From contig MABD01000021.1 of the NCBI GenBank assembly GCA_002162955.1, positions 1-53,662 of the forward strand: DNA of 53,662 nucleotides, read 5' to 3'. Of the stretch, positions 33,009 to 53,526 are shown piece after piece. This DNA is from Gammaproteobacteria bacterium 45_16_T64 (GTDB lineage: Bacteria; Pseudomonadota; Gammaproteobacteria; Pseudomonadales; Ketobacteraceae). Positions within the stretch are counted from its first letter, which is position 1. Each line of letters starts with the position of its first letter. The translations under genes and the position numbers were made by a program. The notes beneath the pieces were generated by a model. The model saw only the letters and a list, made by a program, of their open reading frames with translations. It was not told the DNA's origin and did no database searches.

Positions 33009-33281
33009 GTGAACACGGATTTGGCGTTGGCAATGTCCCAAGAAATGTTAATCACTGCTGCGATGGTAGCTGCGCCTGTACTCGGGGTGGCATTGGTGGT
33101 CGGTTTGGCGATCAGTATTTTCCAGGTTGTCACACAAATTCAAGAGATGACACTTACTTTCGTTCCTAAGATTATGGCAGTCGTTGGTGTTTTTTTTGTT
33201 TGTGGCCCGTGGATGTTGCAAACGTTGTTAACTTTTGCAACAAATCTAATAACGAATATTCCTAATATTATCGGGCACTAA
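33009..33281 (+). CDS. fliQ: Flagellar-type export gate protein FliQ
   Basis: A 90-residue inner-membrane protein of the type III export gate, with two membrane helices (about 14-36 and 56-78) and the family signature VGLAISIFQVVTQIQEMTL followed by FVPKIMAV and GPWML. FliQ packs around the FliP-FliR core. Translation begins at GTG, with GAGGGA upstream. It is the first gene of the 25-gene unit, and its stop overlaps the fliR start (TAATG). Confidence 0.94.
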   Translation: MNTDLALAMSQEMLITAAMVAAPVLGVALVVGLAISIFQVVTQIQEMTLTFVPKIMAVVGVFFVCGPWMLQTLLTFATNLITNIPNIIGH

Positions 33282-34051
33282 TGTTATTTCAGGGAGAGAT
33301 ACAATGGGTAGTAACACTGATGTTAGTGGCCATTAGAACAGGCGTGTTATTTTTTGCGACACCATTAGATGCGTTCGGTAAGGTACCAACTCAGGTGAAG
33401 TTGTGGGTGTCTGTTGCGTTTTCTGTCCTAATAGCGACAACAATGGACCTCCAGATGATTGTTGTGCCATCGGATGTTGTGGAACTTGTCATGATGGCAG
33501 TATCCGAGGTGATGGCCGGGCTTATTATGGCATTCGGACTCTATACCGCTTTTGGGGCATTTATGATTGCCGGTGGAATATTGGATTATCAGACGGGTTT
33601 TGCGGCCGCTAATGTTTTTAACCCAGCGTTAAATTCTCAGAACCCTTTGCTGGGAACGGTGATATCAATGTTTGCACTGTTGTTCTTTTTTTTGGTGGAT
33701 GGCCATCACATGTTACTCAGAGGCATTATTTTTTCTTACCAAATGATGCCGGTAGGCAGTGCGCTTCCAGACATTAGTATGTCGTTAATTATGGCTCAAT
33801 TTGGCATGATGTTTACCTTTGGTGTTGTTCTTGCCGGCCCTGTAATAGCGGTGCTGCTAATGCTTGACGGTGGAGCGGCAATCATGGCTAGAACCATGCC
33901 GCAGATGAACGTATATTTCTTGTTTTTACCTCTTAAAATATTGGTTGGATTGATGCTTTTGGCGAGTGTCTTCATATATATGACGCCTGTTATGAACGAG
34001 ATATTTCAACGTACCTTCCGTTTTTGGCATTCTGCCTTTGTTTTGAGTTAG
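33281..34051 (+). CDS. fliR: Flagellar-type export gate protein FliR
   Basis: A 256-residue inner-membrane protein with six to seven hydrophobic segments. Typical FliR features include RTGVLFFATPLDAFGKVPTQVKLWVS near the start, EVMAGLIMAFGLYTAFGAFMIAGGILDYQTGFA in the middle, and NPLLGTVISMFALLFFFLVDGHHMLLRG. FliR completes the FliP5-FliQ4-FliR1 gate through which substrates are exported. It overlaps fliQ by one base and is followed closely by flhB. Confidence 0.94.
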   Translation: MLFQGEIQWVVTLMLVAIRTGVLFFATPLDAFGKVPTQVKLWVSVAFSVLIATTMDLQMIVVPSDVVELVMMAVSEVMAGLIMAFGLYTAFGAFMIAGGILDYQTGFAAANVFNPALNSQNPLLGTVISMFALLFFFLVDGHHMLLRGIIFSYQMMPVGSALPDISMSLIMAQFGMMFTFGVVLAGPVIAVLLMLDGGAAIMARTMPQMNVYFLFLPLKILVGLMLLASVFIYMTPVMNEIFQRTFRFWHSAFVLS

Positions 34052-34062
34052 GGCGACAGACT

Positions 34063-35142
34063 ATGTCTAGTGAAGAACCTGATAAGCATGAAAAAACGGA
34101 GCAAGCGACACCGTTTAAATTAGAAGAAGCCAAAAAAAAGGGTTCAGTCGCGAAGAGTCAGGAAGTGAACTCCCTCTTGGTACTGTCAGCCGTTCTTTTG
34201 CTGTTGTTTGGTCTAGGGAATGATATCGCTAAAAACATGCTTGCACTTTGTGTTGACATTTTTTCAAGTGCTGGGAAGCTAGAATTCTCAGCGGAAACGA
34301 TAATGTGGCAGTGTGGGGATTGGATAATGAAAGGGCTGGCGGTGATTAGCCCGATCACTATATTTATTCTAATCGTGGGTGTTCTGGCAAATTTGATGCA
34401 GACAGGGCCTATTTTCTCTACTTTCCCGTTAAAGCCAGATTTGAAAAAAATTAACCCCGTGAAAGGCTTCAAAAAGCTATTTTCGAAAAAGACGTTATTT
34501 GATACGGTCAAGAATGTGATTAAGTTAGGTCTGATGTCATCGGTGCTCTATTTCGCCGTAGAGCAAAGCCTTCCTGATTTTATTGGACTGTTACAGCGCC
34601 CCCCGAGTGGTTACATACCATTTTTTATCATGGCGTACGGGTCTGCGTTATTTAAGATTTTAATGGTGATTTTATTGATTGCTCTAATTGACTTTCTTTT
34701 TGTGCGCTGGGAATTTTCTAGCAATATGAAAATGACAAGGAAGGAGGTAAAGGACGAATCTAAGAGAAGAGATGGTGATCCGCTCATAAAATCTAAGCGA
34801 AGAGAGCTCGAGAAAGAGCTTAGAAAACGCAGTGAAACAGCACAAAGTGTGCCTGGGGCAGATCTTATTATCACAAACCCAACCCATTATGCAGTCGCAC
34901 TAAAATACGATAGAAGCTCTATGGCTGCCCCAACGGTAGTCGCGAAAGGGACGGGGGAAATGGCTCTTAGAATAAGGGAAATTGCGTTTTCACATCGTGT
35001 TCCGGTGTTTGAGTCGGCGAGATTAACTAGGCAGATTTTTAAAAAAACAGCAGTAGATAATGCGATACCTGAGGATACTTATGTCCTTGTCGCAAAGTTG
35101 TTGCGAAAAGCCTATGCCCAAAAAAATAAAGTTACGGCATAA
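34063..35142 (+). CDS. flhB: Flagellar-type export switch protein FlhB
   Basis: A 359-residue protein: four membrane helices in the first 210 residues, then a cytoplasmic domain with the autocleavage site NPTH at 272-275, close to the E. coli position. The N-terminal EKTEQATPFKLEEAKKKGSVAKSQE is a hallmark of the family. FlhB switches export from rod/hook to later substrates, so the system is expected to undergo substrate switching. The ATG at 34063 is selected by homology; the longer frame overlaps fliR. Confidence 0.95.
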   Translation: MSSEEPDKHEKTEQATPFKLEEAKKKGSVAKSQEVNSLLVLSAVLLLLFGLGNDIAKNMLALCVDIFSSAGKLEFSAETIMWQCGDWIMKGLAVISPITIFILIVGVLANLMQTGPIFSTFPLKPDLKKINPVKGFKKLFSKKTLFDTVKNVIKLGLMSSVLYFAVEQSLPDFIGLLQRPPSGYIPFFIMAYGSALFKILMVILLIALIDFLFVRWEFSSNMKMTRKEVKDESKRRDGDPLIKSKRRELEKELRKRSETAQSVPGADLIITNPTHYAVALKYDRSSMAAPTVVAKGTGEMALRIREIAFSHRVPVFESARLTRQIFKKTAVDNAIPEDTYVLVAKLLRKAYAQKNKVTA

Positions 35143-35172
35143 CGAGATGAGCTTGATAGGCAGTAGAAAATT

Positions 35173-37311
35173 ATGATACCCAATGAATCAGTAGTGAAAC
35201 AATTATTCGGTACCAAGAGCGAGATAGTGCTTGTTGCCGCAATGATTGGAATTCTCTTTGTCCTATTCTCCCCAATACCAGCATTTATGCTGGATTTCCT
35301 ATTGGTTATCAATTTCAGCTTCGGTCTTCTTGTGCTGTTGTTGACATTCTATACCGATAAACCAACCTCTTTTTCTACATTTCCATCGCTTTTGCTGATT
35401 GCGACTTTATTCAGGTTATCGCTAAATATTGCTGCTACTCGACTAATACTGTCGGATGGGGATGCAGGTGAAGTGATAAATGCGGTTGGAACCTACGTAG
35501 TGGGTGGAAATTATGTGATTGGTTTGGTGGTTTTTCTCATTCTCATCGTTGTTCAATATGTTGTGGTAACAAGTGGGGCGCAACGTGTAGCTGAGGTTGC
35601 GGCTAGGTTTACCCTAGATAGCATGCCTGGTAAGCAGATGAGTATTGATGCTGATCTTAATATGGGCCTTATTGATGAAGCAGAAGCAAAGGAACGCCGA
35701 GAAAATATAGAGAAGGAGGCGAATTTCTATGGTTCGATGGACGGTGCCAGTAAATTCGTCAAAGGTGATGCTATCGCGGGAATTATTATTATTCTTATCG
35801 ACATCATAGGTGGATTAACAATAGGTATCGCGCAGAAAGGTATGGCGTGGGGGGATGCACTGCATACTTACACGTTGTTAACGGTAGGGGATGGAATAGT
35901 TACCCAGATACCTGCGCTAGTGATATCAACAGCGACGGGAATTATTGTAACGCGTGCGGCCAGTGACGCCATGTTTGGAGAAGAAGTAGCGCAGCAAATT
36001 GGCAGATTTCCAAAGAGCCTAGTCATTGTGAGCATAGGGTTGCTTGGTTTAGCGTTTTTGCCCGGGATGCCCGTGTTTCCAATGCTTACGATGTTCGTCG
36101 TTTTTGTCGCACTTGCCTATTTTGCATTTAAGAACTCGGCTAACTTGCTAAACGAGGGTGTTGAGGAAGAAAAAATAGACGAACTTGATGAAGAAGATGA
36201 TCTCTACAAAACGATTCAAGTGGACCCTATAGAAATATTTGTTGGGGACAATCTAGCGGAGTGGATAGGCGACGAAAGTGGTGTATTCATGGAGAAGATA
36301 AAGGCCTTTAGAAAACAATACGCCATGGATATGGGCTATGTATTTCCTGCAATCAGAATAAAGGAAGATGGGCGAAGTAATACCTGCGGTTACGAAGTAA
36401 AGGTGTTTGGAGCTAGGGTTGCGGAAGGGGAATTGTATAGAGATCGCGTGATGGCGATATCTGCTGGCGAGGCGAAAATCCAAGTAGACGGTATTGCTAC
36501 TAAGGAGCCCTCCTACGGTTTACCTGCGGTGTGGATAGAACAAGATTGTGTCGATGATGCAAAAAATAAGGGTTATACCCTGGTTGATCCGTTAACAGTG
36601 CTCGTTACTCATTTCAGTGAAATCATCAAGAACCATACAGATGAGTTACTGACCCGTTCTGAATGTGAAAGCATGTTGCAGCGAGTGAGAGAGTCTCAAC
36701 CGTCGCTTTTGGAAGAGCTTATTCCAAACGTGATGTCCATTAGTGATGTGCAAAAAGTACTGCAAGCATTGCTCAACGAAAAAGTGTCAATTAGAAATTT
36801 AGAAATGATACTGGAAACCCTAGTTGATAAGGGTAAGCAAACCAAAGATCCACAGGAGCTTGCTGAACAAGTGCGAGGTAGTTTGGGTAGAACTATATGC
36901 GAACAGCTTGTTGATAAATCCGGTCAACTCAAAGTATTGAGTCTAGAGCCTGCTTTCGAACAGACACTGCAAGCAGGTTTACGGGTTAATGAGCACAAAA
37001 CAACATTGTTGGTTGATCCCAAGGTTACAGAGCAGTTATTTAAGAAGCTTAGTAAATATGGAGAATCCATGATGTCAGAGAATATTCGCCCGGTGTTGCT
37101 GTCGTCTCCGCTATTGAGAAGGCACCTTCGAAAGTTGATTGAGCGAATGATGCCGCATCTACACATACTCTCTTTGACCGAGGTTCCGACTTCTGCTCAT
37201 ATCGTTTCTTATGGGGTTGTGACGTTAGAGCGTAGCGCACAGGTGACTCCTGTTCAAAAGAAACTGAATAAAATGAACCCAAACGTAACGAATAAGAAGG
37301 GTGTGAAGTAG
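35173..37311 (+). CDS. flhA: Flagellar-type export apparatus protein FlhA
   Basis: A 712-residue protein with about eight membrane helices in the first 330 residues and a large cytoplasmic domain that forms the export nonamer ring and docks chaperone-substrate complexes. Signatures include DKPTSFSTFPSLLLIATLFRLSLNIAATRLIL, AARFTLDSMPGKQMSIDADLNMGLIDEAEA (FHIPEP region) and DGASKFVKGDAIAGI. A short acidic linker (EEEKIDELDEEDD) precedes the cytoplasmic part. It is immediately followed by flgF with no gap. Confidence 0.95.
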   Translation: MIPNESVVKQLFGTKSEIVLVAAMIGILFVLFSPIPAFMLDFLLVINFSFGLLVLLLTFYTDKPTSFSTFPSLLLIATLFRLSLNIAATRLILSDGDAGEVINAVGTYVVGGNYVIGLVVFLILIVVQYVVVTSGAQRVAEVAARFTLDSMPGKQMSIDADLNMGLIDEAEAKERRENIEKEANFYGSMDGASKFVKGDAIAGIIIILIDIIGGLTIGIAQKGMAWGDALHTYTLLTVGDGIVTQIPALVISTATGIIVTRAASDAMFGEEVAQQIGRFPKSLVIVSIGLLGLAFLPGMPVFPMLTMFVVFVALAYFAFKNSANLLNEGVEEEKIDELDEEDDLYKTIQVDPIEIFVGDNLAEWIGDESGVFMEKIKAFRKQYAMDMGYVFPAIRIKEDGRSNTCGYEVKVFGARVAEGELYRDRVMAISAGEAKIQVDGIATKEPSYGLPAVWIEQDCVDDAKNKGYTLVDPLTVLVTHFSEIIKNHTDELLTRSECESMLQRVRESQPSLLEELIPNVMSISDVQKVLQALLNEKVSIRNLEMILETLVDKGKQTKDPQELAEQVRGSLGRTICEQLVDKSGQLKVLSLEPAFEQTLQAGLRVNEHKTTLLVDPKVTEQLFKKLSKYGESMMSENIRPVLLSSPLLRRHLRKLIERMMPHLHILSLTEVPTSAHIVSYGVVTLERSAQVTPVQKKLNKMNPNVTNKKGVK

Positions 37312-38046
37312 ATGTCAGATATCATGGCAATTGTAAATCAGGCAATGAATGCTGACGCGGAACGTTTGAGGTCAATCGGACAAAACCTAGCGAATGTTAA
37401 TACCGAAAGTTACAAACGAGAGGTAGTGACGCAACAGTTCGATCGCATGATGGTAGAGAAAAATGAGTCTCGGGTTGGGCTTTATTCGACGGGAAGTGAC
37501 AGTGCTTTACACCCGAAGGTTATGAGGGATCTTTCTCAAGGTGTCCTGAAGCAGACTAATAATCTGATGGATATCGCTCTAAATGGTCAAGGGTTTTTAC
37601 AAGTTGAAAAGTCTGGTGATACCTATTTTACGCGTAAAGGACATTTGGCGGTGGACGAGAACGGTGTGCTATCACTGACTACTGGGGAAAAAATCCTGGG
37701 TATAGGTGGGAATATCTATCTGGATGGCACCAATGTAGAAATAGATACCGAGGGGAGCTTGATACAAAGTGGGGTGGATATCGGACAACTTGCTGTCGTT
37801 CATTTCGAGAATGCAGACGAGTTGGACTACGTCGGTGAGGGACTATTTAAGCAACGAGATGCACAGATCTCTGTGTCGGGAAATACGAGAGTAAAGCAGG
37901 GTTTTATTGAAGTGTCCAATGTTGATTCGCTTACTGAAATGACGGCACTTATTGAAGCGACTCGACATTTCGAAGCGTCTAGTCAAGTGTTGAAAGGGTA
38001 CGATTCGATGTTGGATTCTGCAATTAACACGCTAGCGGATTTTTAA
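37312..38046 (+). CDS. flgF: Proximal rod protein FlgF
   Basis: A 244-residue rod protein starting directly after the flhA stop. N-terminal ADAERLRSIGQNLANVNTESYKRE and C-terminal GFIEVSNVDSLTEMTALIEATRHFEASSQVLKGYD are the paired coiled-coil regions common to axial proteins; the middle carries DIALNGQGFLQVEKSGDTYFTRKG. Position before flgG and length close to the usual 245-250 residues support FlgF over FlgG. Confidence 0.88.
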   Translation: MSDIMAIVNQAMNADAERLRSIGQNLANVNTESYKREVVTQQFDRMMVEKNESRVGLYSTGSDSALHPKVMRDLSQGVLKQTNNLMDIALNGQGFLQVEKSGDTYFTRKGHLAVDENGVLSLTTGEKILGIGGNIYLDGTNVEIDTEGSLIQSGVDIGQLAVVHFENADELDYVGEGLFKQRDAQISVSGNTRVKQGFIEVSNVDSLTEMTALIEATRHFEASSQVLKGYDSMLDSAINTLADF

Positions 38047-38107: not shown

Positions 38108-38887
38108 ATGTTTGACGCGTTGTATATAGCGGCCACAGGAATGCAGTCAGAGAAAACGCTGATTGATAATATTTCAAATAATCTAGCGAATTTGAATACG
38201 CCTGGATTCAAAAAAACCAGGGTTGAATTTACCGATCTGATGTATGCGGATTCTAGCAATGCGACGTCAGAATTATCTAAACTCGATTCTGAAGTGAAGA
38301 TGGGCATGGGTTCATCGATTACGGCCGTAAATCGAGATTTTTCAGCGGGTGACTTGAAGACCACAGAGAATCCAATGGATCTTGCGATTAACGGAGAAGG
38401 TTTTTTTGAAGTGGAACTTGGTAATGGAGAATATGCCTACACTAGAATTGGTTCTCTACGGCTGATGGATGACGGCTTCTTGTCGACAGTCGCTGGAAAG
38501 AAGTTATCAGCGAATATAAATGTACCATTAGAAACAACTCGACTTATTGTTAACAAAGATGGACTTGTGCAAGCCCAGATAGCTCAAGAAGATGAGTTAG
38601 TTGAGCTGGGGCAGATGGATATTGTAAAATTCCCTAATGCACAAGATTTAGATCCAATTGGAAGTGGGATGTACTTGGCGACTGAAAAATCTGGCGGCGC
38701 TCTTTATTCAGAACCAGGAGAAAACGGAGCTGGACAAATTGTCCAGGGGTTTATTGAAACATCTAACGTTGATCTTGTTGCGGAAATGATTGACTTAGTT
38801 GTAGCGCAACGCGCCTACGAAGTCAGTTCACAGATTATTCGAGCATCTGATGAGATGCTCAAAATAACCAATAATCTACGTGGCTAA
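38108..38887 (+). CDS. flgG: Distal rod protein FlgG
   Basis: A 259-residue protein with the classic FlgG start MFDALYIAATGMQSEKT, NISNNLANLNTPGFKKTRVEF, the middle DLAINGEGFFEVELGNGEYAYTRIG, and the C-terminal GFIETSNVDLVAEMIDLVVAQRAYE. Length is normal for the family (about 260). It forms the distal rod that crosses the P and L rings. A good AAAGGAAT ribosome site precedes the ATG in a 61-base spacer after flgF. Confidence 0.94.
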   Translation: MFDALYIAATGMQSEKTLIDNISNNLANLNTPGFKKTRVEFTDLMYADSSNATSELSKLDSEVKMGMGSSITAVNRDFSAGDLKTTENPMDLAINGEGFFEVELGNGEYAYTRIGSLRLMDDGFLSTVAGKKLSANINVPLETTRLIVNKDGLVQAQIAQEDELVELGQMDIVKFPNAQDLDPIGSGMYLATEKSGGALYSEPGENGAGQIVQGFIETSNVDLVAEMIDLVVAQRAYEVSSQIIRASDEMLKITNNLRG

Positions 38888-38904: not shown

Positions 38905-39912
38905 GTGAATAGATCGGATTTCTTGTTGCGTGTTTTGATATTCCTAGCGCTCAGTTTGGGGGGGGGCTGTGGCACCTCACAGTCGGTGAACGCTGCGGAA
39001 CGTGTGACCCTACAAGTATATCCACAAATTCAATGGGCTAAAGTTGAAACACCTCTGTATTCCATTACAAAAATCTATGCAAGAAAGGATGTAAAGGAAA
39101 TAGTTAAGCCAATTCCGGTAGATCTGACAGGGTTGATCGGCAATGGCGAAAGCGATGTGCAGGTGCCTTTGACTTTACTTAAGGAACTGTTGGTTTTATC
39201 GATGGAGACGACTGGCTATGATCTTAGAGTTGTTGGACCAAGTCGAGTTACGTTTAAGAAAAAAGTGGAAAAAACTGATAAAGCGCGGTTAATAGAATTC
39301 GCCAAGATAGAGTTGCAGAATATATTGCAAGGGTCCTTTGATAAGGTGACATTGACACCCGCCACTAAGTCCATCTCTGGTGTTGCGCTTCACTTTGATG
39401 ATCGCTTGCGGATAGATAAAACTGACTATCTATCACAACTATCTCATTCAATGACAGTCGGCGTTGAGGTGTTACGTCGTGGCGTGGTGGTTAGTCGGGT
39501 TCCTGTTGGTTTTTCGGTGAGCGTCCATAGAGATGTACTGGTGTTATTGGATGATATGTCGGAAATGGAGCGTGTTACACCTGATCTAATCCAGCGAAAA
39601 CTAATGGATATAACTGCGATCCATCGTGATGTATTGAATGATGAAGGTGTTGTTGGGAGTATGGCTAAGCATCGACTTCGAAAAGGTATGGTTCTAAAAG
39701 AAGGTGATCTTTTACCTGTACCTGATGTGATAAAAGGTGATGCGGTGAATGTTATATCGCGGGTGGGTGTTGTCACTATTAGAGCTGGTGCCATTGCTTT
39801 ATCCCATGGGTATGTTGGTGAAAGTATCAGGGCCAAAAATGCGAAAAGTGGCGAAATATTTGAGGCAAATGTCATCGCCAAAAATCAGCTAAGTGTCGAC
39901 GATAAAGGTTAA
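38905..39912 (+). CDS. flgA: P-ring assembly chaperone FlgA, enlarged, with a G9 tract
   Basis: The C-terminal 130 residues carry the SAF-type FlgA domain (MAKHRLRKGMVLKEGDLL, VNVISRVGVVTIRAGAIALSHGYVGESIRAKN), which helps assemble the FlgI ring in the periplasm. At 335 residues it is about 100 longer than common FlgA proteins because of an extra N-terminal domain. The signal peptide region encodes SLGGGCG through an uninterrupted run of nine G (38958-38966), a classical slippage-prone tract. A Cys at that point could also make it a lipoprotein, although the lipobox is weak. Start is GTG. Confidence 0.88.
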   Translation: MNRSDFLLRVLIFLALSLGGGCGTSQSVNAAERVTLQVYPQIQWAKVETPLYSITKIYARKDVKEIVKPIPVDLTGLIGNGESDVQVPLTLLKELLVLSMETTGYDLRVVGPSRVTFKKKVEKTDKARLIEFAKIELQNILQGSFDKVTLTPATKSISGVALHFDDRLRIDKTDYLSQLSHSMTVGVEVLRRGVVVSRVPVGFSVSVHRDVLVLLDDMSEMERVTPDLIQRKLMDITAIHRDVLNDEGVVGSMAKHRLRKGMVLKEGDLLPVPDVIKGDAVNVISRVGVVTIRAGAIALSHGYVGESIRAKNAKSGEIFEANVIAKNQLSVDDKG

Positions 39913-39925
39913 GGGTAACAACGAA

Positions 39926-40534: not shown

Positions 40535-40545
40535 GAAGCTTTGTA

Positions 40546-41689: not shown

Positions 41690-42070
41690 ATGGAAAGTAT
41701 TATTAGTAACGTGACATCAACATTGTTGACTAAAGCATTGGACGTTGTCTCTCAAGAGCACAAAGCCATTGCAAACAATATCGCGAATGTGGATACACTC
41801 AATTATCGTGCAATGCATGTTGATTTTGATCAGGTGTTTGCCTCTGTGAGTGATGTTGTCATTAGTGGCGACAAAGAAGCATTAAGCCAGGTAGTTGGCC
41901 AATTAGGTACAATGGATCTGCCGACAGTCGAGGAACTATCTACGCAAGTTGTATTGGATAGTGAAATGGTCAGAATGACCGAGAATACGATGCGTTACCA
42001 AGCCTTAATTGGGTTTAAAAAAGGACTTGGTGCTTTAACGGGGATTGCCATCAATGGAGGTCGTTCTTGA
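41690..42070 (+). CDS. flgB: Proximal rod protein FlgB
   Basis: A 126-residue rod protein: ALDVVSQEHKAIANNIANVDTLNYRAMHVDFDQVF near the N-terminus and MTENTMRYQALIGFKKGLGALTGIAINGGRS at the C-terminus. Length is close to the usual 130-137. It overlaps flgC by one base (TGATG) and starts the block flgB-flgC-fliE-fliF, whose order matches the Bacillus fla/che operon. Confidence 0.93.
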   Translation: MESIISNVTSTLLTKALDVVSQEHKAIANNIANVDTLNYRAMHVDFDQVFASVSDVVISGDKEALSQVVGQLGTMDLPTVEELSTQVVLDSEMVRMTENTMRYQALIGFKKGLGALTGIAINGGRS

Positions 42071-42501: not shown

Positions 42502-42505
42502 TACG

Positions 42506-45587: not shown

Positions 45588-46891
45588 TGGACAAACGCCA
45601 GATTCTTCGGGCAATAAAGCACTGCGAGACTATTCAGCGAACTGGCCGGGTGCTGCAGTTTTATGGTCTCGTGTTAGAGGCTTCGGGTCCCGATGTGTTT
45701 CTGGGTGAGATTTGTGAAATCTACACCCCGAAAGCTGCCCACCCTGTGGTTGCAGAGGTTGTAGGGTTTAGGGATGGCAACGTATTGATGATGCCCTATG
45801 GGAACCTAAGCGGTATCCATGTCGGCAGTGAAATCGTCGCGACCGGCCGATCTGCCTCTCTCCGTGTGGGGGAGCATTTGATGGGGCGAGTGGTTGACGC
45901 ATTTGGCCGGCCGATTGACGGGAAGGATTTTCTGAGTGAAGGAGAGGAATACCCATTATACCCAGACCCCATAAACCCGCTTGATCGACAGCGAATAACC
46001 GAACAGTTTACGACGGGGATTCGTTCAATAGATGCGATGCTAAGTGTTGGCGTTGGACAACGCGTTGGACTTTTTGCAGGAAGTGGTGTGGGCAAAAGTA
46101 CGTTGTTGGGGCAAATAGCTCAAGCATCGAGTGCTGATGTCAATGTTATTGCACTGATCGGAGAAAGGGGGCGTGAAGTTCTCGATTTTGTTGTGGAGAA
46201 TTTAGGCGAAGAGGGGCTTAAGAACAGTATTGTTGTTGTTGCTGGGGCCGATCAACCTGCCTTGGTTCGTGTTCATGCGGCTTATGCAGCAACGACCATC
46301 GCTGAATATTTTAAGAACCAGGGTAAAAAGGTATTTTTGGCCATGGATTCGATTACTCGCTTTGCTATGGCACAGCGGGAGATTGGTCTAGCAATTGGTG
46401 AGCCCCCTACGGCTAGGGGTTATACCCCATCTGCATTTGCGCAGATCCCCAAATTGGTGGAAAGGGCGGGTAACTTTAGGGATAGCGGTTCTATTACTGC
46501 AGTGTATACCGTTTTGGTTGAAGGTGATGATTTTAATGAGCCCGTATCTGATGCGACTCGAGCGATACTTGATGGGCATATCATTCTATCGAGAAAGATT
46601 GCCACTAGAGGCCGCTTTCCTGCGATAGACCTATTAGAAAGTGTTAGTCGCTTGCAAAAGCAAGTGTCGTCAAATGAAGACCAATTGTTAGTAACGAAGT
46701 CTATTAAATTGTTAAGCCTCTACCAAGATTCTAAAGATCTTATCGAGTTGGGTGCTTATCAAGAAGGGAATAATCCGCAGTTGGATGAAGCTATTGTATT
46801 CTATCAAGGCTTTGAAGAGGTTGTCTCGCAAGTTAGTCCCGAAGAGGACGCAGCGGAGATACTTCGACGCTGGCTGCGAAAGAACGTTTAG
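45587..46891 (+). CDS. fliI: Export ATPase FliI/SctN
   Basis: A 434-residue hexameric ATPase of the F1-beta type that unfolds and feeds export substrates. Walker A is GSGVGKST (165-172), Walker B includes VFLAMDSITRFAMAQREIG, and the EPPTARGYTPSAFAQIPKLVERAG and SNEDQLLVTKSIKLLSLYQDSKDLIELGAY segments are specific to FliI/SctN rather than to F1. It overlaps fliH and is followed by fliJ. Confidence 0.95.
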   Translation: MDKRQILRAIKHCETIQRTGRVLQFYGLVLEASGPDVFLGEICEIYTPKAAHPVVAEVVGFRDGNVLMMPYGNLSGIHVGSEIVATGRSASLRVGEHLMGRVVDAFGRPIDGKDFLSEGEEYPLYPDPINPLDRQRITEQFTTGIRSIDAMLSVGVGQRVGLFAGSGVGKSTLLGQIAQASSADVNVIALIGERGREVLDFVVENLGEEGLKNSIVVVAGADQPALVRVHAAYAATTIAEYFKNQGKKVFLAMDSITRFAMAQREIGLAIGEPPTARGYTPSAFAQIPKLVERAGNFRDSGSITAVYTVLVEGDDFNEPVSDATRAILDGHIILSRKIATRGRFPAIDLLESVSRLQKQVSSNEDQLLVTKSIKLLSLYQDSKDLIELGAYQEGNNPQLDEAIVFYQGFEEVVSQVSPEEDAAEILRRWLRKNV

Positions 46892-46906: not shown

Positions 46907-47380
46907 GTGAAAGATACAGTGAAAGATGAAAAGAGAAAAATAAGAGCGTTGCGATTTCTTCATCAAGAAAACGAACAGCGTATTGGAAATAAAAATAGAG
47001 AGCTCATATCGGCGAGTGATATGGTGAATACATTAATTGAACGGTGCAATCAAATAGCGTTGCTAATCGAAAACAGCCAGAAACGGCTGGCTGAGACGCT
47101 GGCTCCAGGCGGTATTATCGCTCCGAACAGTGTGATGCAAATACACCACTTTATCACAGAGCAAAGTACTCAAGAATCCTACGTAAAAGAAGAGTTAAAA
47201 GATGCTAGGAATCGATATGACGAGTTACACAGCGAATTAACGTCACTTAATGTCGAGCGTCGACTGTTAAGAGAAAAGATAGAACAAAAAGAACAGGAAA
47301 CAATACAAATGCTTAATAGCGTAGAATATTCAGAAGTCGAAGATCTGTTTCTCGCTAGAATGGCCAGGGGAGAGAGTTAG
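46907..47380 (+). CDS. fliJ: FliJ/SctO-like coiled-coil export protein
   Basis: A 157-residue protein predicted to be almost entirely an antiparallel coiled coil (LRFLHQENEQRIGNKNRELI ... NRYDELHSELTSLNVERRLLREKIEQKEQE). This is the usual form of FliJ/SctO, the central stalk of the export ATPase. Sequence identity across this family is low, so the call relies on coiled-coil character, length (about 147 in E. coli) and position directly after fliI. The start is GTG. Confidence 0.78.
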   Translation: MKDTVKDEKRKIRALRFLHQENEQRIGNKNRELISASDMVNTLIERCNQIALLIENSQKRLAETLAPGGIIAPNSVMQIHHFITEQSTQESYVKEELKDARNRYDELHSELTSLNVERRLLREKIEQKEQETIQMLNSVEYSEVEDLFLARMARGES

Positions 47381-47382
47381 TA

Positions 47383-48027
47383 ATGGATGGTGCCGGTATC
47401 ATTTTGTCAACGTCGTATGGCGAGAAAGGGGCAAGTAAACCCAAAGCAGATAGGCAGGGTTGGTTGAGAGCATTCGAGGAAGAAGCTTTTGATGATTTTG
47501 GTGAGAAAGCTGCGACTAAAACACTTGAAGGTAAACCAAGTGAAGACTTTGTTCCATTGAAGGAGCATGACCAGAATGTAGACAAGAGAGTTACTAGTAA
47601 CGTAGTGGTCGAGAAAAACTCTCACGTTGTAGAAATGGAAAATACGCTAAATACCTCCGTGGTATTTTCACAATTAGCTCCTGTTTCAACAGAAATCTCG
47701 TCAATAACGAGTAAGGTGCTAGATGTCGCTTATACCCAGTCAACCTATCGATCAGATGCTTCTCAGCTTAATCGTCATAATAGTTCACAGATAAAACATG
47801 CATCTGAAGCGTTGGCAAAAGAAAACTCTGAATTCAAAGAGATAAATATACTGGTTTCCCAACACGGTGATAAGACAACACTGTTGTTGAGGAATTTCTT
47901 TGTTGATAATGAGAAAGATAAGATTCACTGGGCAATGCGCTTGCAAAAATTACTTGAAAGCACGGGCATGGTGATAGATGAAATTAAAGTTAATGGACAA
48001 TTGGTAGAACTACCGGAGAGTAAATAA
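47383..48027 (+). CDS. Candidate hook-length control protein (FliK/SctP position)
   Basis: A 214-residue protein with a long, polar, probably disordered N-terminal part (1-155, rich in Ser, Thr, Lys, Glu) and a compact C-terminal part (FKEINILVSQHGDKTTLLLRNFF ... LQKLLESTGMVIDEIKVNG). That layout is characteristic of FliK/SctP ruler proteins, whose C-terminal domain contacts FlhB. Direct similarity to FliK is too weak to be sure, and at 214 residues it is about half the E. coli length (405). It sits between fliJ and flgD, exactly where fliK lies in many flagellar operons. Confidence 0.6.
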   Translation: MDGAGIILSTSYGEKGASKPKADRQGWLRAFEEEAFDDFGEKAATKTLEGKPSEDFVPLKEHDQNVDKRVTSNVVVEKNSHVVEMENTLNTSVVFSQLAPVSTEISSITSKVLDVAYTQSTYRSDASQLNRHNSSQIKHASEALAKENSEFKEINILVSQHGDKTTLLLRNFFVDNEKDKIHWAMRLQKLLESTGMVIDEIKVNGQLVELPESK

Positions 48028-48028
48028 C

Positions 48029-48424
48029 ATGGCGATTGAATCAATAGGTCGAGTTGCATCGTCCGATAGTGCCGCTACGCAAAATTCTGTAGGTATTGAC
48101 GACTTTCTAGAGATATTCTTAACCCAGCTAAATTTCCAAGACCCTTTGGAGCCAGTGGATAATCGTGAGTTTATCGCTCAGCTAGCCCAGTTTTCTTCAC
48201 TGCAAATTGCCAGTGAGACGAATGATAACCTTGAAGGGTTATTGGAAGTGAACTCTGTGGACCAAGCCGTGGGGTTAATCGGACGTAGTGTTACCTTTAA
48301 TGGGGGGTTAAGCGGGCGAGTTATTGCCATGCGTCTCCAGGGTGAGGATCTTGTGCTGGATATAGATGATGGCAGTGGTGTTCAGCGTGGTATCAGCCCG
48401 GTAAATGTTACCCTTGTTCAATAA
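48029..48424 (+). CDS. flgD: Hook-capping protein FlgD, short form
   Basis: A 131-residue protein with the conserved FlgD N-terminus (GIDDFLEIFLTQLNFQDPLEPVDNREFIAQLAQFSSL) needed for export and hook capping, followed by AVGLIGRSVTFNGGLSGRVIAMRL. Common FlgD proteins are about 220-230 residues; here the C-terminal Ig-like and Tudor-like insert is missing, leaving a minimal cap. This might fit the unusual hook protein encoded next. It starts two bases after the previous stop. Confidence 0.9.
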   Translation: MAIESIGRVASSDSAATQNSVGIDDFLEIFLTQLNFQDPLEPVDNREFIAQLAQFSSLQIASETNDNLEGLLEVNSVDQAVGLIGRSVTFNGGLSGRVIAMRLQGEDLVLDIDDGSGVQRGISPVNVTLVQ

Positions 48425-48471: not shown

Positions 48472-50508
48472 ATGAGTTCACTCAGCTCTCTGTATAACAG
48501 TTTAAGTGGCCTGGCGGGTTTTACCAAAGCGCTAGATAACCTTAGTAACAACGTGGCGAACCTAAATACTCCAGGTTATAAAGGACGTGATGTTTTTTAT
48601 CGCGAGCTAGCTGGCGGAAACCCTGAGCAGGGGGTGCCTGGAAATGGAGTTGAAGTTGGTGGTGGGTCCATTCGGTTTGCTGACGGTGATACTAACCAAA
48701 CAGGGAATGCAACAGATCTGGCAGTTGACGGTAATGGTTTTTTTATTCTTCGGGATCAGCGGGATGGTGTTTCGCAAACCTACACAAGAGCTGGTCAGTT
48801 TACCTTTGATGCAGATGGCTATTTGATTGATGCAAGCACTGAAAAAAGGGTTGCTGGAATAAATGAGTCAGGAAACCTTACGGATATCAATATCCAGGAT
48901 TATAGGTTCAGTGATCCGATTGTTACCAGTGTTGCCAAGCTAACGGGAGGGTTAAGCTCTTCTGCAACAGAAGGTAGTGTATATCCAGCAGATGACGAAA
49001 CACCCATAGAGCTATCGTTGTTTGACGATGCGGGCCGCAGTGTAAACGTTAAGTTGTTGTTCAAGAAACTTGAGGGCAGAGACTGGGAAGTATCCATTGT
49101 CGACGAAAATGATGTGCAGGTGGCGGCAAGCCAAACTCTCGAGTTCTCAGACCTTGGTAATCCGGTAACTGCAACACATACCTTCCTTAGAGATATCCAG
49201 CTTTTTAACGTGTTAGATGAACTGGATTACACATCTGCATTTAGTGCCGGTGAGGAAGTAGCATTCACCGATGGAACCCCTGAGAGTGGGGATGCCACTA
49301 GTTTTGAAATTGATGATGCCTTTTTTGTGACACGTGACAATGGAGATATCCATTTTAGTAACACGGGTGTGTATACGTTTGATGATGACGGGTTACTCAC
49401 CGATGCCGACACTGGTTTCGCTGTTGCTGCTGTGACTGACGCGGGTGGTTTGGAGGATTTTTCTCTTGCAGATTCCCTAACAACACCTGCGGTAGCCACA
49501 ACGAGCGTGAACATCGTCGGTAATATTGATGCAAGTGTAGAAAATGGTATTGAGGTTCCTAGCGATACAGAAGACCCATTTACATTTGAAGTCATGGGCC
49601 CAGAGGGTGAGCTAAGAACGATACAGCTACAGTTTTTAAAAGAGTCGCTGACGGGGTGGTCTGTGATCGCCAAGAACGACATTGGAGGGGACTTAAATAA
49701 TACTGCTGCTGATGGGTCGGGTACGGGTGTCGTAACGTTTAATGCATATGATGAAACGAACGATGCCCTTGATGGGAACGTGATCCCCAGTCAGTCTGAA
49801 GTGATTATTGAATATGCACAAGACGGCCATGAGACATTTGATTTCACCTTGTCGTTTGTGGATGAAAATGGAGATTCCTCGTTTACCGCTATTAATGAAC
49901 AGGTCAGTGATCTATCGGGAGCGATGGCTGATGGCAAAGAAGTCGGTGTGTTAACTACCGCTAGTTTTGATGAAGACGGCATTGTTACCGTTAATTACAG
50001 TAATGGCGAAGTTGAAGTTCTGCAGAGGCTTGCGGTGGTAGACCCACAAGGGCAAGTGATTAATGATGTAGAGTTTGATTTTTCTGGTGTCGCATCACAA
50101 TCCACGACATCAAGCATCGAAGTGTCGGAGATTGATGGAAGGTCAAAAGGTTTACTTTCCGATTCGCGATTCGATGAAAATGGCCAACTTATTCTGAGTT
50201 ATTCCAATGAAGATGTTTATGAAGCTGAATATGTCGCTCTTGCCCATTTTAGCGACCTAGGCGACCTGGTGTCTGTGGGGGATACGCAGTTTAGATTAAG
50301 CGAAGGTGGAAACATCATCATCGGGCGTCCAAATGATGAGGGTTTAGGGAAAATACAAGGCGGGGCAATTGAACTGTCCAATGTAGAACTTTCCCGAGAA
50401 TTTGCAGACATCATCATTGTACAGCGTGGCTATCAGGCGAGTTCGCAAGTGCTTAACGTCACAAATCAAATACTAGAAGAACTTTATAATAGCGTAAAAG
50501 GTCGATAA
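48472..50508 (+). CDS. flgE: Hook protein FlgE, enlarged by internal duplications
   Basis: A 678-residue hook protein (E. coli FlgE has 402). N-terminal SLYNSLSGLAGFTKALDNLSNNVANLNTPGYKGRDVFY and C-terminal AIELSNVELSREFADIIIVQRGYQASSQVLNVTNQILEEL are the axial coiled-coil ends. The middle contains two internal repeats: residues 90-213 resemble 284-404 (FF...RDxxD..., F(T)FDxDGxLxDA), and 490-527 resemble 557-599 (FDE(D/N)G...YSN). The extra domains should decorate the hook surface. AAAAAGG precedes the ATG. A 47-base spacer separates it from flgD. Confidence 0.93.
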   Translation: MSSLSSLYNSLSGLAGFTKALDNLSNNVANLNTPGYKGRDVFYRELAGGNPEQGVPGNGVEVGGGSIRFADGDTNQTGNATDLAVDGNGFFILRDQRDGVSQTYTRAGQFTFDADGYLIDASTEKRVAGINESGNLTDINIQDYRFSDPIVTSVAKLTGGLSSSATEGSVYPADDETPIELSLFDDAGRSVNVKLLFKKLEGRDWEVSIVDENDVQVAASQTLEFSDLGNPVTATHTFLRDIQLFNVLDELDYTSAFSAGEEVAFTDGTPESGDATSFEIDDAFFVTRDNGDIHFSNTGVYTFDDDGLLTDADTGFAVAAVTDAGGLEDFSLADSLTTPAVATTSVNIVGNIDASVENGIEVPSDTEDPFTFEVMGPEGELRTIQLQFLKESLTGWSVIAKNDIGGDLNNTAADGSGTGVVTFNAYDETNDALDGNVIPSQSEVIIEYAQDGHETFDFTLSFVDENGDSSFTAINEQVSDLSGAMADGKEVGVLTTASFDEDGIVTVNYSNGEVEVLQRLAVVDPQGQVINDVEFDFSGVASQSTTSSIEVSEIDGRSKGLLSDSRFDENGQLILSYSNEDVYEAEYVALAHFSDLGDLVSVGDTQFRLSEGGNIIIGRPNDEGLGKIQGGAIELSNVELSREFADIIIVQRGYQASSQVLNVTNQILEELYNSVKGR

Positions 50509-50510
50509 CC

Positions 50511-51305
50511 ATGTCATCACCATTTATTTTATATTCAAGTACGCAAAAGCACGCTATTGCTGATGTTATTGTCACGACATTAACAGATTGGGCTAAGTCC
50601 TGGCTGGGTGTGGGTAGTTTGCATTGTGAAGTCAGTGAGCTTCAGGATGCGTCTGAGCAGCTATTCGATTTACATTTTCATGAGGCTCTGGGTACTTCAG
50701 AAGGGGCTGTTTTTATTAAAAAAGATCACTTTTCAGTGTCGCTTGATAAGGAAAATTCGAGTGTTCTGGTTAATAAGATGCTCGCCGCCAAAGATCTCTC
50801 AACCGGTTTGGGTGATGAAAGTAGTTTCCTATTGGAGAGCTGCATAACAGAAATAGAACACGCCCTTCTTTCGGTAATATCTAAAAAGCAAGGGGAGTCA
50901 GATACCCCTTCTTCTCCGCGGGTTAAAGGAGGCGGTTGGTGCTTTTGTTCTCTTTCATTTGGAGAGCTACAGTTTTCGATTGCGGTAGATAGAGTCATGG
51001 TTGATGCGTTAATCCAGCTGCCAAGCCTAATAACCCGGAAAAAACTGGGTTTACACTCATTACCTACCGCTATCACTCATGGTGATGTTGAGCTGAATGC
51101 CGTGGTAGCAACCCTTGAATTGACTTTAGGTGAACTACAGCAACTTCAAATTGGTGATGTTGTTCGTCTAGAAAAGAATATCGGCGACACCATTGCTGTG
51201 TGCAACAAGCAAGGAGAGGTTGTTTGTTCGGGTTATTTAGGGAAACGTAACGAATCAAAAGCCATCATGTTGGCAAAAAACACAATAGGAGCAACACGTG
51301 TCTAA
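50511..51305 (+). CDS. C-ring protein, FliM/SctQ-like, lacking the CheY-binding N-terminus
   Basis: A 264-residue protein whose C-terminal 75 residues form a SpoA domain (ELNAVVATLELTLGELQQLQIGDVVRLEKN ... GYLGKRNESKAIML). The first 185 residues are poorly conserved, with a WAKSWLGVGSLHCEV start that recalls SctQ rather than FliM. FliM is about 334 residues and begins with a CheY-P-binding EIDALL motif, which is absent here, so ordinary chemotactic switching is unlikely. It lies between flgE and fliN, where Bacillus has fliM. It overlaps the fliN start by eight bases. Confidence 0.75.
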   Translation: MSSPFILYSSTQKHAIADVIVTTLTDWAKSWLGVGSLHCEVSELQDASEQLFDLHFHEALGTSEGAVFIKKDHFSVSLDKENSSVLVNKMLAAKDLSTGLGDESSFLLESCITEIEHALLSVISKKQGESDTPSSPRVKGGGWCFCSLSFGELQFSIAVDRVMVDALIQLPSLITRKKLGLHSLPTAITHGDVELNAVVATLELTLGELQQLQIGDVVRLEKNIGDTIAVCNKQGEVVCSGYLGKRNESKAIMLAKNTIGATRV

Positions 51306-51624
51306 TAGCAAATCACATAACGATGCTGAAAATATAGAACTAACCGAATTGCCTGAAAAAGAAGGCGCTGCAGAAGCCGTCGGAGAAAATAAAATTGACC
51401 TAGTAAGTGGCGTTAAAGTTGAGCTGACGGCAATACTGGGTAAAACCAAAATTTCTGTGGGTGAGCTGTTTAACTTAAAAGAAAACAATGTGCTGCCTCT
51501 GGAAACAACCACAGTTGAGCCTATAGATCTAATGCTAGATGGAAACTGTGTTGCTCGAGGGAACCTCGTCGTGGTTGATGAGCAGTTTGGTATTCAGTTA
51601 ACCGAGATTGCCGTAAAGGCATAG
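51298..51624 (+). CDS. fliN: C-ring protein FliN
   Basis: A 108-residue protein: a short acidic N-terminus (about 1-35) and a SpoA domain (VKVELTAILGKTKISVGELFNLKENNVLPLE ... CVARGNLVVVDEQFGIQLTEI). FliN tetramers form the lower part of the C-ring and bind FliH during export. Length fits a classical FliN rather than the longer FliY. GTG start inside the end of the previous gene suggests translational coupling and a defined FliM-like:FliN ratio. Confidence 0.92.
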   Translation: MSNSKSHNDAENIELTELPEKEGAAEAVGENKIDLVSGVKVELTAILGKTKISVGELFNLKENNVLPLETTTVEPIDLMLDGNCVARGNLVVVDEQFGIQLTEIAVKA

Positions 51625-51632
51625 GGTTTTAC

Positions 51633-52064
51633 ATGTTTTTGCGATCCCTACTGCTGCTAATAATGGTTTTTGTGTTGCCGATAGAAGGCGTGGCAGAAAC
51701 CATTGAAACCGCACCAAACGTGACGATGGAGCAAGCAGCCAAAGGTTTGGGTTTTAAGCAGAGCGAAGAATCCTATGCCAAAGTATATTCACGTTTTGCC
51801 GGTGTTGGGCTAGTACTGCTGTTTTGTGTCGGCGTATGGGTGCTGCTCAAAGGCAAAATTAACAAAGGTAGGGCCCTTGCCAGTGACAAAACAACTGGCA
51901 ACAAGATAGTAACTAAAGAGAGCACCCAAATTGCATACGGTGTAAAAGCGATATTGCTTCAGGTAGAAGGAAAGGATGTGTTAGTGGTACAAACCAAAGA
52001 TAGTCATACGGTAACCCAGTTAATGAGTGAGCCGACGGCGAAGTCGGAACAAGAGGTAGATTGA
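51633..52064 (+). CDS. fliO: Export gate assembly protein FliO
   Basis: A 143-residue membrane protein with a signal-like N-terminal hydrophobic segment (about 3-21), a short outer loop, one membrane helix (about 52-72, GVGLVLLFCVGVWVLLKG) and a small basic-then-beta cytoplasmic domain (AYGVKAILLQVEGKDVLVVQTKD). This matches FliO, which helps assemble FliP. Primary similarity in this family is low; position directly before fliP supports the call. It overlaps fliP by four bases (TTGA). Confidence 0.82.
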   Translation: MFLRSLLLLIMVFVLPIEGVAETIETAPNVTMEQAAKGLGFKQSEESYAKVYSRFAGVGLVLLFCVGVWVLLKGKINKGRALASDKTTGNKIVTKESTQIAYGVKAILLQVEGKDVLVVQTKDSHTVTQLMSEPTAKSEQEVD

Positions 52065-52813
52065 CGTTGTTTATATTGATTCGTTATTTACTCGCAATGG
52101 TGTTATTACTCGTCTCAAGCAGTGCTATGTCAGAAACGGGGTCCAATCTATTTACGCTTAGTATGCCTACAGTGGATGCGGAGCCAGAGAGTGTTTCTAA
52201 TTCGCTCAAAATCCTTGCGTTATTAACCGTATTGAGTCTTGCACCAGCTTTCTTAATGGTTGCAACGTCCTTTACCCGTATTATTATTGTTTTGTCGATG
52301 TTGAGGCATGCGTTTGGTATGCCTTCAACGCCGCCTAATACGGTGATGATCGGTCTCGCCTTATTGCTTACATTGTTTACCATGACGCCAGTACTCGATC
52401 AAATACAGGAGCATGCATTACAGCCTTACATAGACAAGACCATTGACGATGTGACAGCGTTGGAAAACGCCAGCGTACCGATCAGAGAGTTCATGATATC
52501 TCAAACACGGGATAAGGATATTGCGTTGGTATTGGAGTTGTCCGGTGATGACGTACCTAATTCGGTGAATGATGTATCGATGACTCAACTTGTTACCGCT
52601 TTTCTACTAAGCGAATTACAAACGGCATTTCAAATTGGTTTTATTATCTTTTTGCCGTTTCTTGCGATAGACCTTATTGTTGCCAGCATACTGATGTCAA
52701 TGGGTATGATGATGGTGCCGCCCATGACCATATCACTACCGATAAAGATTCTGATGTTTGTACTTATTGAGGGCTGGGTATTGGTTGCCCAGGCATTGGT
52801 GTCTAGCTTTTGA
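52061..52813 (+). CDS. fliP: Flagellar-type export gate protein FliP
   Basis: A 250-residue protein with a cleavable signal peptide (about 1-25) and four further membrane helices. FliP hallmarks are LAPAFLMVATSFTRIIIVLSMLRHAFGMPSTPPNTVMIGLALLLTLFTM, LVTAFLLSELQTAFQIGFIIFLPFLAIDLIVASILMSMGMMMVPPM and LPIKILMFVLIEGW. It forms the pentameric core of the export gate. It begins at TTG overlapping the fliO stop (TTGA). It is separated from fliQ and fliR, which open the operon 18 kb upstream. Confidence 0.95.
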   Translation: MTLFILIRYLLAMVLLLVSSSAMSETGSNLFTLSMPTVDAEPESVSNSLKILALLTVLSLAPAFLMVATSFTRIIIVLSMLRHAFGMPSTPPNTVMIGLALLLTLFTMTPVLDQIQEHALQPYIDKTIDDVTALENASVPIREFMISQTRDKDIALVLELSGDDVPNSVNDVSMTQLVTAFLLSELQTAFQIGFIIFLPFLAIDLIVASILMSMGMMMVPPMTISLPIKILMFVLIEGWVLVAQALVSSF

Positions 52814-53526
52814 CGGAGAATACCACGAGGACAAAGGACGTCGATGATACCGCCATTGGAATCTTGTGGCGGTACTTCTCGATACAGCCAGCAAACGCTA
52901 ATCGAAATGCACTGATAGAATATTACGTACCGTTCGGTCATTCTGTTAGTGATTTATTTTCTCGACGGTACCAAGGGTTTGGTGTTTGCAAAGATGATTG
53001 CAGGCAAAATGGATTGGTCGGCCTAATGGATGCTGTCACTAAGTACGAAACAAAATTTGGTGCCCGCTTTGAGACATACGCATCCTTTAGAATAAGGGGC
53101 GAGCTGGTTAATGGCCTTAAGAACTATTGTGTGGACTTGGATCTGTTTAGGGCTGAACACAGAAAAGAGGGTGTGTTAGCGCTGTCTATTCCCGAAGATA
53201 CGCGGACACTGGAAGGTTGGTCAGGAAGCATTGCTGATATGGCAATTTCAGCGAGCCTGTCTCTTGATGACGATTTGAATATCGTTGATCCGAAGGAGCA
53301 CGGATATGATGAGAGTAATCTATTTTCCAGGAAGGTGTGGAGCCAGGTTGAGAAGCTAAGTGAAAATGAAGGTCATGCGATCATATACCATTATCTTTAT
53401 GAATGTAGTTTTGCTGAAATCGCAGAAATCCTGGACGGCTCTAAATCTCGCGTATACAAAGATCATAACCAAGCGATTCGTAATTTGAGAGGATTTCTCA
53501 GTAAAGACTTTGATATCTTAGTTTAA
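52810..53526 (+). CDS. FliA-like sigma factor (sigma-28 family)
   Basis: A 238-residue RNA polymerase sigma factor. Region 2 is visible in LIEYYVPFGHSVSDLFSRRY through GLVGLMDAVTKYETKFGARFETYASFRIRGE; region 4 is the C-terminal LSENEGHAIIYHYLYECSFAEIAEILDGSKSRVYKDHNQAIRNL helix-turn-helix. Length equals FliA (239), but the sequence is divergent, suggesting a dedicated sigma for late genes of this system. A TTG start overlaps the fliP stop by four bases. No FlgM-type anti-sigma gene is in the window. The 136 bases after it contain no clear gene or promoter. Confidence 0.88.
   Translation: MTENTTRTKDVDDTAIGILWRYFSIQPANANRNALIEYYVPFGHSVSDLFSRRYQGFGVCKDDCRQNGLVGLMDAVTKYETKFGARFETYASFRIRGELVNGLKNYCVDLDLFRAEHRKEGVLALSIPEDTRTLEGWSGSIADMAISASLSLDDDLNIVDPKEHGYDESNLFSRKVWSQVEKLSENEGHAIIYHYLYECSFAEIAEILDGSKSRVYKDHNQAIRNLRGFLSKDFDILV

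Follow-up and report, generated by a model that had tools for sequence, protein, structure and literature searches.

Does a run of flagellar genes that holds no filament or stator gene, and no recognizable gene for the rotor protein FliG, encode a second flagellum or a secretion device derived from one? The question is raised by the 25-gene operon at positions 33009 to 53526 of contig MABD01000021.1 (C44 in our numbering) of Gammaproteobacteria bacterium 45_16_T64. The window, meaning the whole stretch of DNA analyzed, is this entire contig of 53,662 bases, from a 6.49-Mb draft genome (G000; 58 contigs, 97% complete). Comparative sequence analysis makes it quite likely that the operon encodes a non-rotating, filament-less basal body with a hook, serving as a type III secretion machine devoted to giant YD/RHS proteins. 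The machine is probably a weapon or secretion device derived from a flagellum, and it occurs with genes for such proteins in numerous unrelated bacteria as well as on some plasmids.

As the original prediction had it, 25 genes lie on one strand, overlapping or separated by short gaps, and all of the open reading frames (ORFs) exist. Their order, followed by the end of the contig, is given below.

33009..33281, plus strand: fliQ, export gate (PF01313, E value 1e−27)
33281..34051, plus strand: fliR, export gate (PF01311, E value 2e−53)
34024..35142, plus strand: flhB (PF01312, E value 5e−111), NPTH motif in the translation
35173..37311, plus strand: flhA, export gate (PF00771, E value 1e−247), in the system clade (100/99)
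37312..38046, plus strand: flgF, rod (Pfam rod/hook domains)
38108..38887, plus strand: flgG, rod (Pfam rod/hook domains)
38905..39912, plus strand: flgA, P-ring chaperone (PF13144, E value 5e−20)
39893..40534, plus strand: flgH, L ring (PF02107, E value 7e−35)
40504..41658, plus strand: flgI, P ring (PF02119, E value 5e−115), used as marker profile A6
41690..42070, plus strand: flgB, rod (PF00460 below cut-off, plus position)
42067..42501, plus strand: flgC, rod (PF06429, E value 8e−15; PF00460, E value 5e−6)
42479..42808, plus strand: fliE (PF02049, E value 6e−24)
42820..44247, plus strand: fliF, MS ring, 475 amino acids (PF01514, E value 7e−55)
44249..44746, plus strand: orfG, shortened fliG, 165 amino acids, N-terminal and middle domains (hhalign against full FliG)
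44754..45587, plus strand: fliH (PF02108, E value 5e−13)
45587..46891, plus strand: fliI, export ATPase (PF00006, E value 3e−85; T3SS_ATPase_C, E value 7e−13)
46907..47380, plus strand: fliJ (PF02050, E value 0.006, below cut-off, plus position)
47383..48027, plus strand: fliK-like hook-length gene (position only; counterpart at the same place in relatives)
48029..48424, plus strand: flgD, hook cap (PF03963, E value 6e−19)
48472..50508, plus strand: flgE, hook, 678 amino acids (Pfam and NCBIfam)
50511..51305, plus strand: fliM, short (PF01052, E value 7e−10, SpoA-type C-terminal domain only)
51298..51624, plus strand: fliN (PF01052, E value 5e−20)
51633..52064, plus strand: fliO (by position, no Pfam hit; counterparts in relatives)
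52061..52813, plus strand: fliP, export gate (PF00813, E value 2e−74)
52810..53526, plus strand: FliA/WhiG-like sigma factor (Pfam sigma-70 regions 2 and 4; NCBIfam FliA/WhiG below cut-off)
53599..53662, plus strand: contig end, the upstream region of the same genome's giant YD gene (64-base exact match to contig C41)

Pfam families were matched above cut-off by FliQ, FliR, FlhB, FlhA, FlgF, FlgG, FlgA, FlgH, FlgI, FlgC, FliE, FliF, FliH, FliI, FlgD, FlgE, FliN, FliP, and the sigma-70 factor. Weaker assignments are those of FlgB and FliJ (below cut-off), FliK and FliO (by position, the FliK-like protein matching nothing in Pfam or NCBIfam), and FliM, recognized through its C-terminal domain only (NCBIfam TIGR01397 matches just residues 182 to 255). 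With these qualifications, the complete export gate, ATPase complex, rod, P and L rings, hook, and sigma factor announced from the first reading of the DNA are all there. Pfam reported no flagellin, FlgK/L, FliD, MotA/B, or Che family among the 25 proteins, in agreement with the earlier statement that filament, junction, stator, and chemotaxis genes are missing from the operon; MotA/B, FlgK/L, and FliD were sought in the operon, not genome-wide. Nor did Pfam report a secretin or needle family for the operon proteins, which have FlgH and FlgI in place of a secretin ring. The NPTH motif of FlhB presumably marks it as the specificity switch, and an alignment of eight FliF sequences contains invariant residues near the C terminus. 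FlgE is internally duplicated (residues 64 to 215 versus 259 to 403, 30% identity over 152 columns; E value, 3e−19); hook proteins outside the family of the window are mostly ∼390 to 420 amino acids long.

Among 15 genomes of this family searched with FliF, four have the system: G000 itself, G001, G004, and G009. It was also identified in G022, G083, G138, G150, and G162 from the order and in G534, G578, and G613 from the class. A FliI scan of named genomes yielded at least 80 loci, so that the distribution given here is a lower bound; giants were sought in the genomes of 20 of them. Among the matches listed, the same operon type was present in a Lake Erken gammaproteobacterial metagenome-assembled genome (MAG), Duganella, Massilia, an Aquabacterium MAG, an Oxalobacteraceae isolate, Legionella maceachernii, and Legionella fairfieldensis, with a fragment in a Luminiphilus MAG. 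No recognized filament or motor gene belongs to the conserved gene set of the relatives read. A gene for a 382-amino-acid TPR protein lies beside most of these operons, and a pair encoding a TPR protein and a protein of about 100 amino acids lies beside several. Across the 80 scanned loci, FliI, FliF, and FliP separated the system poorly from canonical flagella, whereas FlgI and the 382-amino-acid TPR protein separated it well.

The candidate cargo lies close to the operon in several relatives. A 7,599-amino-acid ORF directly follows the sigma gene in G001, an 8,836-amino-acid ORF stands beside the operon in G009, and G004 carries two giants, of 7,721 and 7,871 amino acids, one gene after the sigma gene. 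Giants reach ∼12,900 amino acids, and their layout consists of a shared leader, a DUF6531-like part, YD/RHS repeats, and a variable tip; near the end, LysM is found in some, and a cysteine precedes a hydrophobic stretch in eight of the nine full giants. The G000 giant and one of those in G004 share 82% identity until ∼280 residues before the C terminus, after which they are unrelated. Judged by sequence, the giants are proteins with a conserved body and a variable C-terminal tip, as in polymorphic toxins. Cysteine is scarce, with 23 in the 61,679 residues of the nine full giants (0.04%; nine of the 23 in the G150 giant) compared with 0.88% in the window ORFs, and the window's FlgB, FlgC, FlgD, FlgE, FlgF, FlgG, and FliE have none. 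Over 23 sequences, giants of system-bearing genomes contained 35 cysteines in 20,153 residues, against 52 in 6,580 residues of non-system giants (eight partial sequences, one an unrelated lipoprotein). Behind all 13 giants inspected, a small same-strand ORF (61 to 229 amino acids) was identified at a distance of −35 to +39 bases; five of these ORFs overlap the giant by 4 bases, and no two are alike, although the three shortest may be spurious. A scan for FliA-type promoters upstream of the giants and the operon, using a consensus sequence, gave nothing convincing.

In G000, the giant (7,758 amino acids; leader-led N terminus 88% identical) is carried by contig C41. Counted from the start of this gene, positions −186 to −122 match the final 64 bases of the window exactly, and the similarity ends there. 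A repeat that precedes a giant elsewhere in the same genome would explain why the contig stops at the window end, and such a break is what one would expect if the window's sigma gene were joined to another giant. Also on C41, a 149-amino-acid ORF downstream of the giant (L133:429-878) repeats a stretch near the C terminus of the G001 giant, like an orphan tip cassette, and the gene just upstream (L134:5115-5741) has a weak metallopeptidase match.

Giants and operon occur together. Within the family, a leader-led giant N terminus was found in exactly the four operon genomes; G006 gave only a marginal, internal match (7e−4). An order sample of 293 genomes was searched with a profile of the system FliF (A1, E value of ≤1e−60) and one of the giants (A2, E value of ≤1e−10). 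FliF was identified in 12 genomes and giants in nine, all among the 12, compared with 0 of the 281 others. As only sequences of the window's family went into the two profiles, the hits in two other families of the order are independent of the query. The genomes with FliF and no A2 giant were G103 (79% complete, partial gene) and G124 and G173 (660 and 730 contigs); the G173 giant (= G296) was recovered with a broader profile, A5 (2e−88). At the order-level cut-off FliF may be a less clean marker than FlgI, given its poor separation of the system. Of 369 genomes of the class, 43 had some A5 match with an E value of ≤1e−10, largely internal repeats, and the four best giant matches came from the genomes with the four best FlgI matches (473 to 656 bits, next 345), namely G000, G534, G578, and G613. 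In the 20 FliI-derived genomes, 12 of the 13 with the system architecture had giants matched from the leader on, as against none of the 7 others, the miss being a 2.7-Mb Luminiphilus MAG. Overall, giants were found in 24 of the 27 distinct system-bearing genomes searched. Fisher tests, all of which ignore kinship, gave 6e−15 (order), 1e−9, and 1e−4, or 4e−7 for the class with seven divergent giants counted. Giant and operon share one contig within ∼30 kb in G001, G004, G009, G022, G298, G303, G305, G534, and G578; in G298, G303, and G305, the contig with the giant was equated with the operon record through identical length and by reading.

The pairing extends to plasmids. A search of 72,556 plasmid records placed the top three FlhA matches (49 to 55%, next 44%) on Variovorax, Undibacterium, and Burkholderia ubonensis plasmids, and all three plasmids with a system-type FlhA carry giants. 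Among the 15 matches listed for the N terminus of the Duganella giant, six ran from residue 1 with E values of ≤1e−53 (next, 2e−15): those three plasmids, the Undibacterium KW1 plasmid, and two Eleftheria terrae plasmids. The KW1 and E. terrae plasmids have the giant and no system FlhA among the matches listed for the same replicon. The B. ubonensis plasmid, which is conjugative, holds a complete island between insertion sequences (operon, two TPR genes, and giant); its giant has 4,897 amino acids and one cysteine, and a 196-amino-acid ORF overlaps it by four bases. The giant gene occupies 38,847 bases on the Undibacterium plasmid and is a 6,200-amino-acid ORF on the Variovorax plasmid. In these records, the annotation of the giants goes no further than 'LysM', 'tandem-95', or hypothetical protein. 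In the Undibacterium plasmid, flgI is annotated as two adjoining frames (L255:8338-9503). Phage records gave weak FliF fragments only.

Several observations weigh against a machine dedicated to the giants. The tie between the two is a genomic association, from which we infer export. As assembled, the giants are unlinked to the operon in 15 of 24 genomes, G000 included, and none was found in 3 of the 27 system genomes (G103, G124, and the L038 MAG). The count of 0 of 281 depends on a profile able to miss giants, as A2 missed that of G173; A2 undercounts them, possibly also among the 281. In G613, the best giant match covers model positions 43 to 211, with positions 1 to 82 on another contig. 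L. fairfieldensis bears the system, yet its giant contains 17 cysteines in 876 residues. No toxin domain was found in ten giant tips compared with Pfam, and NCBIfam gave one weak match only, to the type III effector XopAI (E value, 0.011). As for the small ORFs behind giants, 79 of 144 other long ORFs of the same loci (operon genes included) have such a neighbor, 16 of the 144 with a 4-base overlap, so that the dissimilarity of the followers tells more than their presence. Finally, divergent giants with a related leader (E values of 1e−22 to 1e−34) were identified without a system FlgI in G406, G414, G319, G343, G620, G488, and G594, five of which (G319, G406, G488, G594, and G620, the last 58% complete) gave no FlhA match. 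The leader is therefore not exclusive to the machine: either it serves another exporter in those genomes, or the link to the machine is looser than it appears. In G343, the flagellum is canonical, including a FliG-sized gene of 333 amino acids, and the giant contains 45 cysteines in 4,000 residues. At L214, L216, L211, and L208, in genomes without an FlhA match, the divergent giants are open frames of 3,288 to 4,251 amino acids with a similar leader.

An alternative that draws on these points is a filament-less hook organelle for attachment or other small cargo, with the giants co-inherited, perhaps co-regulated, and leaving the cell by another route. The giants of genomes lacking an FlhA match, the many unlinked giants, and the inferred nature of export would all suit it, but all nine order genomes with A2 giants have the operon, nine genomes carry the two in linkage, three plasmids hold both, and cysteine depletion largely tracks the operon. 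We regard this alternative as unlikely, though deserving of weight.

Evidence for the other half of the preferred reading, a secretion machine that does not rotate, includes orfG. FliG consists of a FliF-binding part, a middle part, and a torque-bearing C-terminal domain. In Pfam, the orfG product gave only a subthreshold match to MgtE_N. Using hhalign, a profile of 14 OrfG proteins aligned with residues 1 to 217 of 340 of a profile of 56 full FliGs from canonical loci of the same FliI scan (probability, 95.4; E value, 6e−9), in a single comparison run with no random control. FliG_C had no match on the window contig. On this alignment, orfG is a fliG that keeps the N-terminal and middle domains, with the torque domain gone; the earlier remark that FliG is not recognizable holds for the torque domain and gives way for the remnant. 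In 22 of the 23 further system loci covering the place (11 not used in building the profile), the 14-member profile recognized the short gene, and the B. ubonensis plasmid has an unrecognized 156-amino-acid gene at the orfG position. The distance from fliF to fliI is 1.07 to 1.52 kb in system loci, compared with 1.66 to 2.47 kb where a FliG-sized ORF of >300 amino acids follows fliF. It falls to 0.5 kb in Massilia aquatica and Massilia atriviolacea, where fliH is no longer between the short fliG and fliI (L050:9486-9998 and L054:9480-9983); at L050, fliH lies on the opposite strand at 18501. An AlphaFold model of the short FliG (pLDDT, 64; pTM, 0.31) was too poor to add weight, and Foldseek placed FliG entries near the top with E values of ≥1.5, for which reason this listing is not used as proof. 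Short FliGs were also seen in Margulisiibacteriota and Saganbacteria MAGs (∼172 amino acids, N-terminal and middle part, probability of 98.8; L060:8773-9294 and L102:7954-8469), perhaps representing another motorless flagellar lineage.

Could the operon instead encode a second flagellum for motility, one whose FliG, stator, and flagellin are borrowed from the cell's canonical flagellum? The three FlhAs of G000 lie on C50, within this operon, and on C5. Canonical flagellar genes are on C30 and C50, while C5 carries an injectisome-type set, the third type III set of the genome (L012:1-8479), with relatives of FlhA, FliI, FliN, FliP, FliQ, FliR, and FlhB. The genome search for FliG, flagellin, and a second flagellar set that had been proposed with the original prediction thus finds these canonical genes, a single FliG_C match (C30), and five Flagellin_N matches (C30, C38, and C35), none of them on C44. 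The cluster of fliG, motAB, and flagellin foreseen there as the sign of an ordinary second flagellum was not seen in the relatives' flanks that were read, the window itself ending with its contig. Flagellin_N was present in 12 of 14 bearers tested, as borrowing would allow, but the two exceptions, L. maceachernii (G312) and G578 (97% complete), carry one FlhA only, that of the system, and gave no Flagellin_N match, so the system need not borrow flagellar parts. The short FliG in nearly all further loci and the lack of FlgK/L and FliD in the window operon also count against a borrowing flagellum, which is improbable. Of the two readings first offered, this one is hard to keep in view of G312 and G578, whereas a flagellum-derived secretion or adhesion device with a hook is supported by the conserved motorless gene set, a separate clade, purifying selection, and the giants as probable cargo.

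The clade was identified in a maximum-likelihood tree of 25 FlhAs, in which no flag-2 FlhA was included; the 15 system sequences formed one group (100/99), from which the seven canonical and three injectisome-type FlhAs stood apart. By these sequences, the system is a distinct lineage. The ratio of nonsynonymous to synonymous substitutions (dN/dS) between G001 and G004 was 0.02 to 0.15 in seven genes, with 0.07 for the short fliG, and 0.02 to 0.18 overall where computable, the synonymous distances between G000 and G001 being mostly saturated. Such values indicate that the system genes are under purifying selection. A flagellar operon in decay, which the shortened fliG and fliM might suggest, is highly improbable given these ratios, 25 open frames, and a gene set and order largely the same over several families and plasmids.

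Returning to a type III machine for the giants, OrfG would join FliF to the FliM/FliN ring, which could act as a sorting platform. After the hook is built, FlhB and the FliK-like protein would switch export from hook to giant; the TPR proteins may be chaperones. The giant, a putative polymorphic toxin, would take the place of the filament as the late substrate, leave unfolded at the hook tip, and fold as a long YD shell; its tip could then be delivered to neighboring cells, while the small gene behind it would protect the producer. With somewhat less assurance than for the machine itself, we lean toward a third functional type III kind, a motorless hook-basal body exporting single polypeptides of ∼5,000 to 13,000 residues, probably contact-delivered polymorphic toxins, and moving as a self-contained island, once on a conjugative plasmid. 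If so, it would add a separate example of a flagellum converted into a secretion device, with hook and rings kept and only rotation and filament lost, and the transition from flagellum to weapon would become testable. It would also supply an export route for giant YD proteins and an extreme length for type III substrates. No published description of the operon-giant pairing was recognized in a search without most subscription journals, so its absence from print is not established.

The operon resembles the injectisome in its apparent export without motility and in the protein delivery proposed. It differs in keeping P and L rings, rod, and hook, in having no secretin or needle family reported, and in an FlhA apart from the three injectisome-type sequences. 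We know of no hook, rings, or giant YD proteins in the type III-like system of myxobacteria. That system, assembled at contact sites, reportedly kills prey (PMC10433427), and is like the present one in being type III related, outside the two classical kinds, and tied to killing. The giants differ from Rhs toxins in their shared leader and in being partnered with a flagellar-type machine. They are also, we take it, several times longer than known Rhs toxins. Like Rhs/YD polymorphic toxins, as portrayed in passages of PMC3482391, they have a DUF6531 start, YD repeats, variable tips, and adjacent small genes; those passages mention a flagellar-operon RNase in Firmicutes and not the giant-machine pairing.

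With flagella, including flag-2/lateral ones, the operon has in common the export gate, ATPase complex, rod, P and L rings, hook, hook cap, and a FliA-like sigma factor. It differs in a FliG without the torque domain, in the giants, and in its separate FlhA clade, in a tree holding no flag-2 FlhA. Flag-2 keeps the LafA flagellin (PMC6993521), whereas the operon is without flagellin, stator, junction, and filament cap. The flag-2 authors also suggest that their system might act in secretion and note that one locus contains an Rhs cargo gene.

Upstream of the operon, the window contains companions shared with relatives.

29549..30157, plus strand: TPR protein, 202 amino acids, conserved companion (Pfam TPR)
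30166..30519, plus strand: 117-amino-acid protein paired with the TPR gene (no Pfam hit)
30551..31699, minus strand: TPR protein, 382 amino acids, possible chaperone, adjoining the operon in most system loci read
31712..32233, minus strand: TPR protein, 173 amino acids (Pfam; counterparts in G001, G009, G534, and G613)
32208..32684, minus strand: 158-amino-acid protein (no Pfam hit; counterparts in G001 and G009)

The 202-amino-acid protein aligns with counterparts by the operons of G001, G009, G162, G083, and the B. ubonensis plasmid, and at the position of the 117-amino-acid gene each of these has a weakly similar short gene. The 382-amino-acid protein shows a weak NCBIfam likeness, below cut-off, to the type III secretion chaperones SctY and LcrH, and is outscored by other TPR families. 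Further upstream, positions 4610 to 26247 appear to be an ordinary neighborhood. The ten ORFs scanned there included genes for an animal haem peroxidase, a GGDEF protein, a biotin carboxylase, and a carboxyltransferase, along with a MauG peroxidase, a DUF6351 protein, and one chemotaxis receptor (16479-18494).

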